Origin: an uncultured Traorella sp.
Lineage (GTDB): Bacteria; Bacillota_I; Bacilli_A; Erysipelotrichales; Erysipelotrichaceae
Assembly: GCA_944324265.1 (NCBI GenBank)
Contig: CALUVS010000016.1
Location: 1-45,966, forward strand
DNA: 45,966 nucleotides
Reading direction: 5' to 3'
Made by a program: the position numbers and the translations under genes. This document shows positions 43,020-45,966 of the stretch, piece by piece. How positions within the stretch are numbered: the stretch's first letter is position 1; each line of letters begins with the position of its first letter. The notes beneath the pieces were generated by a model, which was given only the letters and a program-made list of their open reading frames with translations, did not search any database and was not told the origin of the DNA.

Positions 43020-43381
43020 ATGAAATTCAGTAAATCACTCAGTTTTGCATTGATCATTGGGTTTATTTTTGATAGTCATCTTTTGCATGATCAGCCAACA
43101 GAACTTACGCCTGTCGGAGATGAAATAACACTTCCTTCTCTCAAAGCATCTTGTCTGCACTGTGGAGAAGGTTTATATACACAAACAGAAGCCTATTATA
43201 TAATTGACTGGTATGTTACAGAAGAAGTGAAATGCAATCATCATGTTTATGGCACTGATCTTATGTTATCCAGAGATATTATCATTATTTCTGCAATCAT
43301 TGCGGCGAAAGCATATCTGTAAATGAAAGTAAAACAAAGCTGGAATGCTGCGGCTTTCATATGCAATCTCTACCCAAATAA
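43020..43381 (+). pseudogene. Secreted Cys-rich zinc-ribbon-like protein, probably frameshifted
   Basis: The first frame (to 43322) gives a signal peptide (FSKSLSFALIIGFIFDSH), then CLHCGEGLYTQTEA and VKCNHHVYGTDLMLS, and degenerates into IIIISAIIAAKAYL. In the -1/+2 frame the sequence after the AGAGA at 43272-43276 reads RYYHYFCNHCGESISV, then KLECCGFH, and ends at 43381. Joined, the parts give the repeated CxHCG...CNH...CNHCG...CCG layout that I know from small exported proteins of clostridia. One frameshift, or a sequencing error, therefore splits the gene. The function of the family is unknown. Confidence 0.55.
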
Positions 43382-43388
43382 AACATAG

Positions 43389-43417
43389 AGCCTGCTTGTG
43401 CAGGCAGGCCCTTTTTA
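43389..43417. terminator. Hairpin between the two convergent secreted-protein genes
   Basis: GCCTGC (43390-43395) and GCAGGC (43400-43405), with T5 a few bases beyond. Confidence 0.55.
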
Positions 43418-43437
43418 TGAAATCTCCCCCTTATTTA

Positions 43438-43641
43438 TTACAGCCAGCAATCAGGTGTACAATTGGAACATGGCATGATTCCTAATTCATCATCATCCAC
43501 GCAGATCAGTTCACATTCTCCTTCTTCATTTAACTGGTAAAAGCAAACTTTATTATCTTCATGATCTTCTGCATGCAGTTCACTTGATGAAAACATCATA
43601 GCTAAGGTCAATGCACCCAATACAACTAATTTTCTTTTCAT
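43438..43641 (-). CDS. Small secreted six-cysteine acidic peptide
   Basis: 67 residues from the ATG at 43641 (AAGGAA lies 8 nt upstream; a GTG two codons earlier is too close to it). A signal peptide (RKLVVLGALTLAMMFSSSE) ends near LHA-ED. The mature part of about 45 residues is acidic and holds six cysteines: VCFYQ, GECELIC, MPCSNC and DCWL. No family is recognised; it resembles a disulfide-stabilised or metal-binding secreted peptide. It is divergent from the TPR regulator at 43858 with an inverted repeat between them, so it may be that regulator's target or signal source. Confidence 0.65.
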   Translation of the reverse strand: MKRKLVVLGALTLAMMFSSSELHAEDHEDNKVCFYQLNEEGECELICVDDDELGIMPCSNCTPDCWL

Positions 43642-43699
43642 ATCCACACTTCCTTCCTATTCTTTATATTCTATTATTTTTTTCATCATTGTGATTGTT

Positions 43700-43750
43700 T
43701 TTTCCATTTTTTCGTGAAATTATGATTTTATTTTTAAAAATGATGGAAAA
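43700..43750. promoter_or_regulatory. Inverted repeat between the six-Cys peptide and the TPR regulator
   Basis: TTTTCCAT (43700-43707) and ATGGAAAA (43743-43750) are an exact 8-bp inverted repeat 35 nt apart, in the divergent promoter region. TGATGGAAA and AAAATTGGAA from this block recur at 45631 and 45685. Confidence 0.4.
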
Positions 43751-43791
43751 TTGGAATTTTATGGTAAGCTTATTTATCAAAATGACAACTA

Positions 43792-43820
43792 TTGTTTTTC
43801 TGTATTTAAGATGATATTAT
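43792..43820 (+). promoter_or_regulatory. Promoter of the TPR regulator
   Basis: TTGTTT (43792-43797), 17 nt, TATTAT (43815-43820). Confidence 0.55.
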
Positions 43821-43857
43821 GTAAAAAAAGGTATAACAATTAGTATAGAGGGCGAAT

Positions 43858-45153
43858 ATGGCTGCAGAGTTAAATCAAGAAAAAAGTATCATGGGTATCT
43901 TAATATCCTATTATCGTAAAAACAGCGGAATTAATATTGATACTATCCTGCATAATAAAGATAAATATTTTAATGACTATTGTACCAACTGTCTGAAATG
44001 CAGGGATGTAGAAACAATCTGTTCTTACAAAACATTCAAGAAAATTGAAAGCGGTGGAGTTGTCAGAAATGAATGTATTTATTATCGTCTCTGTGAAAAT
44101 CTGAAATTCAATGTATGTTTTGAAAGAAACGTATTTGAGAAAATGAATCATCTGCGAAACTCCATTGTGAATGGTTTATGCAATTATTCCTATTCTGCTT
44201 TATCCAGCTTATTAAGTGAAATATGCAATGAATGCAATCATTATAAAAACTATTTCTATATTCATGATATATTGGAATTGTATTACGATATCGTTAATTT
44301 TACTATCTATGAAAAAACACCAAATGCAAAGAAAATAGATCTATATCTGTTTTTAAGAAATAAGCTGAATGATACGGACAATAAATTATTAATTTCTTTT
44401 CTGTATAATTTAAGCTTTTATATTCCTGAATTGATTGAATATCGGCATGAATTATTGGAGGAATGCCGCAAGTATTATCAAGATCCTTTATTTTTAAATG
44501 TACGTTTGATTGATATCACAAGCAATAATACGCTGGATGCTTACTATCAGATTAATGAAATCATTTATCATGAACAGCATAGCTTTACGACTTACCAGAG
44601 CTTTTTGCTGTATGATTATTTAGCACTGATAGAAATGAATGGCGATGCTTATGAAAGAGCCTATGTTACGATACAGATTTGTCTGGAAATTATTAATAAT
44701 GGTGCTGATTTCAATCCCGCTACAATCAAGAAAGCCTATCGGCAGATTGGCATGATTGCTTTCTGCTTACAAAAATATGAAGAATCCATCGAATATTTTC
44801 TCAAAGCCAAACGGTTTCATCAACTTTCTTCCTTAAGTATTCAGACCTTGCTTTTATACAAAGCATTGGAAATCACGCACCAAGAGGATCGCTTAAGATC
44901 ATTATTGGCAGAAAGCAAACTGTATCCAACTGAGAATCATGTGGAAAAGAAGATTAATGCTTACTATTATCTGAAATATGATCAGCCTTTAAATAAAACA
45001 CAGATTTCACTTTTAGAAGATTATATCTGTTCAGAAATGAAACCATTAGCAAATCGAATGGGAAAAATATTTAAAGATATTTTCCGTGAAAAATTGATGG
45101 AATTTATTGCCATTACGACGAATTATAAAAAACTATATTTATTTGAAAAATAA
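43858..45153 (+). CDS. TPR-repeat regulator with atypical HTH (RRNPP-like)
   Basis: 431 residues, starting after AGAGGGCGAAT. The N-terminus looks like an XRE HTH: helix MGILISYYRKNSGIN, recognition part SYKTFKKIESGGV, then CIYYRLCENLKFN. It is interrupted by a loop holding CxxCxxC plus one more Cys (C42, C45, C48, C55). Residues 100-420 are helical repeats of the tetratricopeptide kind, clearest at ALIEMNGDAYERAYVTIQIC and GMIAFCLQKYEESIEYFLKA. HTH plus TPR is the plan of the RRNPP peptide-pheromone receptors (PlcR, Rgg, NprR, AimR). Its ligand is unknown; the divergent six-Cys peptide is one candidate. It ends at a good terminator. Confidence 0.7.
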   Translation: MAAELNQEKSIMGILISYYRKNSGINIDTILHNKDKYFNDYCTNCLKCRDVETICSYKTFKKIESGGVVRNECIYYRLCENLKFNVCFERNVFEKMNHLRNSIVNGLCNYSYSALSSLLSEICNECNHYKNYFYIHDILELYYDIVNFTIYEKTPNAKKIDLYLFLRNKLNDTDNKLLISFLYNLSFYIPELIEYRHELLEECRKYYQDPLFLNVRLIDITSNNTLDAYYQINEIIYHEQHSFTTYQSFLLYDYLALIEMNGDAYERAYVTIQICLEIINNGADFNPATIKKAYRQIGMIAFCLQKYEESIEYFLKAKRFHQLSSLSIQTLLLYKALEITHQEDRLRSLLAESKLYPTENHVEKKINAYYYLKYDQPLNKTQISLLEDYICSEMKPLANRMGKIFKDIFREKLMEFIAITTNYKKLYLFEK

Positions 45154-45184
45154 CAGCCATGTCATAAGATATGGCTGCTTTTTT
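45154..45184 (+). terminator. Terminator of the TPR regulator gene
   Basis: CAGCCAT (45154-45160) pairs with ATGGCTG (45171-45177), followed by C and six T. Confidence 0.85.
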
Positions 45185-45211
45185 GAGCAATAAATACTTC
45201 TGTATGTCTTT

Positions 45212-45487
45212 ATGAAACAGACAATTGTAATAAATTTAAATGGTCATATTAGAAAAATAAGAGAGCCGGACATTTCTTTGATCACTGCTGTACTTCTGGA
45301 TTCAATCATATCAGTTTCTTTATTGCTCATTTATTGAAAAAGCAGATATGATTTCTTAAAACTGCAACTTTATCTATTCATCTATTCGTCAATCAATGAA
45401 AAGGTAATCAAGCAATACATTGTGTTGGATGTAGAAAAGTCACACATTCATTTCAATGTGGTTTTGAAAAGGCTTACTGCAGTATAA
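45212..45487 (+). pseudogene. Possible decayed gene with one in-frame TGA
   Basis: From ATG 45212 the frame reads MKQTIVINLNGHIRKIREPD and a hydrophobic stretch, meets TGA at 45335, then continues in the same frame with INEKVIKQYIVLDVEKSHIH to TAA at 45487. One stop in 91 codons is unusual in such AT-rich DNA. There is no family match and no ribosome-binding site. Confidence 0.25.
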
Positions 45488-45888
45488 GATCATTTCTTTG
45501 CTATTTTAACAATAAAAATTAAAAACTTCACAGGATACAGTAAATTTCAGCAGGATCAATACAAATGAGAATGAAACTCTCCCCCCTCTTTTCCTAATAT
45601 CTATTATTTTATAATGTTTTTTTGATTATCTGATGGAAATTCCAAATATTTGATTATTTTTCATTTTATTTTCATTTTATGCTCAAAATTGGAAATTAAA
45701 GAATTCCTGCATCTTTGCAGGAACCAATCATTATACCTGAAATATTCATGGAAACAAATAACTGAATAAAAATTGTTAAAAAAGAGATGATCATTTAAAA
45801 TGCTTGTGATTTGGATGAAATGTTTATGAGTTTTCCACAGTAAAAACTACAGTCAATCAACTGCATTGTTGAATATAAACGTTTCTGC
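45488..45888. other. AT-rich intergenic region with operator-like motifs
   Basis: No gene is visible. It holds TGATGGAAA (45631-45639) and AAAATTGGAA (45685-45694), both shared with the promoter region at 43741-43756. A hairpin TTCCTGCA/TGCAGGAA lies near 45704-45723, without a good T run on the plus strand. Confidence 0.35.
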
Positions 45889-45966
45889 CTATTGAAGAAG
45901 TACTTTATTCATATAATGATTAAATATCTCTTGTCTTGGATAGGCACTGCTAAAATGCAGTTCAAC
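45889..45966 (-). CDS. Possible 3' end of a gene entering from the right
   Basis: Read leftwards from the window edge, the frame gives VELHFSSAYPRQEI, then FNHYMNKVLLQ and TAG. It is too short to name. The codon content looks like real coding sequence. Confidence 0.35.
   Translation of the reverse strand, partial: VELHFSSAYPRQEIFNHYMNKVLLQ

Follow-up and report, generated by a model that had tools for sequence, protein, structure and literature searches.

Organization of the locus

The window analysed here comprises the full 45,966 nucleotides of a single contig (G000:C16), and the Traorella genome to which it belongs measures 2.2 Mb. Two divergent genes lie towards its end, each with its ORF where an earlier note on this DNA had placed it. 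The candidate pheromone precursor gene (43438..43641, − strand), assigned from the ORF, its homologues and a signal peptide read by eye, encodes a 67-aa Sec-type pre-peptide from an ATG start codon, or 69 aa from an upstream GTG; its ribosome-binding site, GGAAGG (GGAAGGAA), is apparent from the sequence at 43650..43657 (− strand). The second gene (43858..45153, + strand) encodes a 431-aa HTH-TPR receptor or regulator of the RRNPP kind, as judged from the ORF, a profile search and fold matches. The region 45154-45966 was searched for a regulator remnant and held none.

The ∼210 bp between the two genes (43648..43857) have a GC content of 22% and are the presumed site of both promoters. The 8-bp inverted repeat pointed out in the earlier note is present and exact, at 43700 and 43743, but it does not exceed chance: in first-order Markov simulations of the 22% GC gap, 52% of the sequences contained at least one such repeat, so it provides no evidence for an operator and was rejected as one. 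An upstream block shared with relatives (ACGAAAAANGGAAAAA), weakly conserved and lying ∼60-75 bp before the peptide start, was likewise not above chance and was rejected as a conserved element. Terminator-like hairpins are more frequent than expected in 43300-43900 (3 observed versus 0.2 expected), and those resembling intrinsic terminators in both directions separate the peptide gene from the gene convergent with it (43387..43412).

The 431-aa protein has a predicted Rap/NprR-like receptor fold

The earlier note had read the 431-aa protein as an HTH-TPR regulator, and Pfam, AlphaFold, Foldseek and VIA-align together support both folds. By sequence, the signal is faint. Pfam gave a weak TPR match to the protein itself (E 0.0015, under the gathering score), TPR_2 matched 14/48 family members and HTH_3 matched 4/48 relatives, and the NCBIfam models gave the regulator no useful name. 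Searching the genome contigs with the single 431-aa sequence gave no match; a profile built from 15 relatives found family members in 50 of the 316 genomes of the order. No match to the system was obtained in the annotated phages, plasmids and viral contigs searched.

The structure prediction that the note had proposed as a check recovered both the HTH and the TPR fold. The AlphaFold2 model, made from an alignment of 48 window and locus sequences, is all-helical and has a pLDDT of 94.8 and a pTM of 0.90, and its residues ∼89-431 (44116..45150, + strand) form a predicted TPR receptor domain with a Rap/NprR-like fold. With this model, all Foldseek rows below E 1e-3 were Rap proteins, followed by NprR, ComR and PlcR. 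The top ten VIA-align rows were all Rap or NprR, with Z 16.5-19.7 over 317-332 residues, and the nearest unrelated TPR protein had Z 15.7. Judged on the model, the lead of Rap and NprR over unrelated TPR proteins is modest, because these are repeat proteins and TPR proteins match one another easily, although the ordering is consistent. In a sequence search of the PDB, most matches were designed TPR proteins of a generic kind and RapF ranked low; the comparison of folds was the more informative. A BFVD search returned generic TPR proteins only. The XRE-type HTH domain (∼residues 1-86; 43858..44115, + strand) was assigned from Pfam matches in relatives and a domain model. Modelled alone, this region reached a pLDDT of 85 and came closest to XRE domains, including those of ComR, PrgX, PlcR, Rgg and HipB, with Z 6-7.4, which is only middling for a domain of this small size.

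The cysteine loop that had been noted inside the HTH is indeed there, as C42-x2-C45-x2-C48-x6-C55 (43981..44022, + strand). The alignment of relatives confines the four-cysteine insert to one subclade, a five-member set, while a cysteine at the C55 (ICS) position occurs in 36/48 members. These cysteines might suggest that the regulator uses C42, C45, C48 and C55 to sense metal or redox state, and that the cysteine-containing peptide is part of a thiol or metal response of the envelope, with no cell-cell signalling. We consider this very improbable: most members with a cysteine-tail peptide lack the four-cysteine insert, and the large TPR domain would be left unexplained. Among the holders of the insert, a third cysteine in the peptide tail (see below) is seen in the window, in L027 and probably in G114, where the peptide is on another contig, and not in L028.

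The peptide of the window and its closest homologues

The 67-aa peptide begins with an n-region (KRK); a hydrophobic core comes next and then a cleavage site, LHA, as read by eye and from a hydropathy score. Removal of the predicted signal peptide, MKRKLVVLGALTLAMMFSSSELHA, would leave the mature part EDHEDNKVCFYQLNEEGECELICVDDDELGIMPCSNCTPDCWL, which contains six cysteines. Comparison of peptides across loci showed that its C-terminal tail, CSNCTPDCWL (43441..43470, − strand), has a C-x(2-4)-C arrangement in common with the others.

Homologous peptides are encoded in congeneric genomes, with 52% identity in an uncultured Traorella (G114) and 45% in T. massiliensis Marseille-P3110T (G091), which shows the small ORF to be a gene. 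Homologues also occur in a further uncultured Traorella (G058) and in G145, and there are weaker ones elsewhere. In G091 and G058 much of the precursor has diverged and the tail, VxCSPECWGx, is retained; in both, the peptide gene is flanked by two regulator paralogues. In G114, at the end of a contig, the peptide gene lies opposite a gene encoding an XRE protein of 130 aa. Such a 130-aa XRE gene is found between the peptide and regulator genes, or facing the peptide, in L029 (8881-9273, −), L031 (8829-9221, −) and L026 (5385-5777, +), and the window has none at the position seen in these Traorella relatives. The window's genome contains a second HTH-TPR regulator gene, on another contig (G000:C75; L116 1023-2483, +), preceded by a Sec-like 68-aa cysteine-containing peptide (CVLLYDENGNIINQEEYEKC) that has no cysteine-pair tail.

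Cysteine-tail peptides recur beside related receptors

We scanned the surroundings of 64 regulator ORFs and fragments for small Sec-like ORFs. Receptor relatives in the Erysipelotrichaceae often had an adjoining small Sec-like peptide with C-x(2-4)-C among its last residues, so that the adjacency the earlier note had suggested checking in related genomes does recur. Such tails numbered 25 near receptors, where the noncoding DNA scanned came to 39,759 bases, and 1 in the 74,710 bases farther away, a count that is partly in-sample because the motif was first noticed in early loci, later widened and then counted on the same loci; about ten of the 25 matches came from loci added after the motif's first form, and two of the 25 look spurious (L041 9427-, L086 4668-). 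Expressed by ORF, 25/95 Sec-like small ORFs within 900 bp of receptors had a cysteine tail versus 1/133 beyond 1.5 kb. The Fisher p-values for near versus far (∼6e-11 by base and ∼7e-10 by ORF) overstate the evidence, since related genomes are not independent. That the two genes are chance neighbours, or that the small ORF is not a gene, is barely credible given this distribution and the conservation of the peptide sequences across species, even though some receptors are without such a neighbour.

The tails are CTPDCWL in the window and, elsewhere, CPPSCWD, CSPECWGV, CSPECWGI, CTLDCWGND, CEHECW, CPRSCW, CIGICW, CTNCWLP, CWFNCE, CGFFCE, CMFNCDEG, CSSPDCMWQ, CSSPDCMFQ, CTAPDCMFG, CFGLGCKDH, CPQPLCKQL, CNKPGCNEA, CDSPECLDID, CPGPGCDPS and CYGSDCVSLN, together with CGYPECDFGSY, CSFPECGFGG, CLFDECG, CILWEC and CSSPGCWVIA, which belong to short members that leave ∼6-15 residues around the tail. 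In this short form, little besides the tail remains after removal of the predicted signal peptide, for example ARCGYPECDFGSY. The long form consists of a cysteine-acidic hairpin plus the tail, and its acidic Cys-x(12-14)-Cys region is conserved too. The earlier note had regarded a cysteine-rich peptide as an unusual partner for such a receptor; the window peptide is cysteine-rich, but it is no oddity of this locus, since peptides of the kind recur among relatives.

The six cysteines and the conserved acidic hairpin of the long form would suit a regulated, disulfide-rich secreted effector (an antimicrobial peptide, or an inhibitor or chaperone of proteases), with the HTH-TPR protein sensing some other signal. 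We hold this to be unlikely, if worth serious weight. The short members are too small for a folded inhibitor or effector, the receptor fold is a peptide-receptor fold, and receptors from another family of the class are accompanied at the corresponding position by ordinary linear peptides resembling Phr. These last receptors (L137, L138, L140 and L141) are followed by Sec-like, proline-rich linear peptides with the motifs DPVPMPYS, ETRPLPFS, DPIPIPFEG and DPIPLPFNP. In a 62-row receptor tree, made by a quick method and with many weak forks, the four form a single clade, and the cysteine-tail label occurs in both halves of the Erysipelotrichaceae receptors (26 rows).

The cysteine tail marks only part of the receptor family, because 20 remoter receptors yielded no convincing cysteine-tail peptide (one near match, which overlaps another ORF and is probably spurious, and none far). 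Several of these remoter regulators have other small Sec-like ORFs ∼110 bp downstream. Many receptors within the set also lack a cysteine-tail peptide, partly owing to contig ends. According to the earlier note, its proposal would be refuted by homologues of the regulator that have no small exported peptide close by: part of the family is of this kind, chiefly the remote members and those at contig ends. In published RRNPP subfamilies, a detectable peptide is missing in 0-60% of cases (PMC9765709).

Neighbouring genes for proteases and cysteine-rich proteins

In three loci (L080, L081 and L087), the peptide gene beside the regulator is followed in the same direction by a gene for a secreted matrixin-like protease and then by a lipoprotein gene; L086 has the matrixin-like protease and lipoprotein genes, with no peptide recognized. 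In L034, L117 and L118 the gene after the peptide encodes a secreted cysteine protease of the C39-like type, and in L032 the same protease lies behind a small Sec-like ORF without a cysteine tail. An inhibitor or chaperone encoded directly before secreted proteases would fit these arrangements, which favours the effector explanation; however, most peptide-bearing loci have no adjoining protease. The window is among them, its peptide gene being followed by the terminator-like hairpins. In Streptococcus, the peptide gene of the RopB-SpeB system lies next to the genes for its receptor and for a cysteine protease that is secreted (PMC10518010). The C39-like protease loci of the cysteine-tail family parallel that arrangement, the difference being that the signal in Streptococcus is a linear peptide made without a leader.

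The window also contains a frameshifted gene for a small secreted cysteine-rich protein (43020..43385, + strand), a candidate member of the regulon. Relatives of this gene lie less than ∼600 bp from regulators in three other Traorella loci. Intact or partial relatives are found at L154 6517-6963, L116 2786-2974 and L094 2852-3067.

Comparison with known systems

PMC10075063 gives as the RRNPP(A) signature a propeptide of 10-100 aa, Sec export, a receptor of 250-500 aa, TPR and genes -60 to 400 bp apart. The 67-aa propeptide and the 431-aa receptor are within these lengths, and the genes are adjacent, divergent and ∼210 bp apart. The other two of the five features, TPR repeats and a predicted Sec export, are supported on weaker evidence than the signature tool demands, and the models add an XRE HTH and a receptor fold of the Rap/NprR/PlcR type.

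The NprR-NprX system of Bacillus resembles the pair in having a receptor of about the same length that combines an HTH with a Rap-like TPR part and, next to it, a gene for a Sec propeptide, such as the one predicted in the window. NprR was among the best fold matches, with ∼12% identity over the aligned part, and belongs to a different bacterial order; NprX, unlike the window peptide, is short and linear and has no cysteine pair. Rap, of the Rap-Phr systems of Bacillus and its phages, gave the best fold match (residues ∼89-431, Z up to 19.7) and also has a small Sec pre-peptide encoded next to it. The majority of Raps have no HTH and target response regulators, and Phr signals are linear. PlcR-PapR likewise pairs an HTH-TPR activator with an adjoining Sec propeptide, and PlcR matched model residues 9-412 with Z 13.5. 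PlcR is shorter than the window receptor, with fewer TPR helices, and PapR is linear. The Agr autoinducing peptides are also cysteine-containing signal peptides of Bacillota. They are processed by AgrB to a thiolactone and sensed by a membrane histidine kinase, whereas the window pair comprises a predicted Sec precursor and, in place of a histidine kinase receptor, a soluble, cytosolic HTH-TPR protein; no AgrB-type protein was recognized in the neighbourhood listings.

A model for the peptide-receptor pair

The genes, the fold similarity, the recurrent adjacency and the shared tail motif lead us to read the pair as an RRNPP-type quorum-sensing module with the C-terminal cysteine-pair peptide as its signal, with a probability of roughly two in three. 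The earlier proposal of a candidate peptide-signalling pair is supported by Rap/NprR as the top receptor match, an XRE-like HTH and an adjacency that recurs in diverged relatives. By analogy with NprR, PlcR and RopB, the precursor would be exported by Sec, and removal of the signal peptide, probably with further proteolysis in the long form, would yield a cysteine-pair peptide (approximately CSNCTPDCWL). This peptide would be re-imported by an oligopeptide permease (Opp) and bind in the TPR superhelix of the receptor, which would then change its binding to DNA in the intergenic region that the two genes share. In this way the receptor may adjust expression of the peptide and, in relatives, of the adjacent secreted-protease genes. 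OppA-like PF00496 proteins, common to most bacteria, were found in 7/7 genomes tested, with two in the window's genome. The conserved acidic Cys-x(12-14)-Cys region counts against the quorum-sensing reading, because a mere leader would not need conservation.

The peptide cysteines could be free thiols in the anaerobic gut, could form a disulfide loop or could be structural. A more specific version of the quorum-sensing reading, which we find rather doubtful, is a redox-gated one: outside the cell the C-x3/4-C pheromone would be closed by a disulfide, and it would have to be reduced or be read as a loop by the receptor, with the four-cysteine HTH insert participating in the window's subclade. 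Were this so, the signal would convey the redox conditions in the gut lumen as well as cell density.

Seven RRNPPA subfamilies have been mapped to Lactobacillales and Bacillales (PMC9765709), and further RRNPP systems are known in Clostridium (PMC7376267, PMC7206700). RRNPP signals are regarded as short unmodified peptides (PMC12998947). Within the RRNPP literature covered, which took in few subscription papers and supplements, no Erysipelotrichaceae systems and no class of cysteine-pair pheromones were described; prior detection is possible, for instance among the new subfamilies of PMC10075063, which a figure there arranges by taxonomic family. The Erysipelotrichaceae receptors and their cysteine-pair peptides probably represent a previously undescribed RRNPP quorum-sensing branch in a common gut family. 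If so, around two dozen peptide-receptor pairs would be ready for testing, some of them linked to secreted proteases, and the question would arise whether the cysteines render the signal redox-sensitive. The T. massiliensis type strain has such a pair and could serve as a laboratory model.
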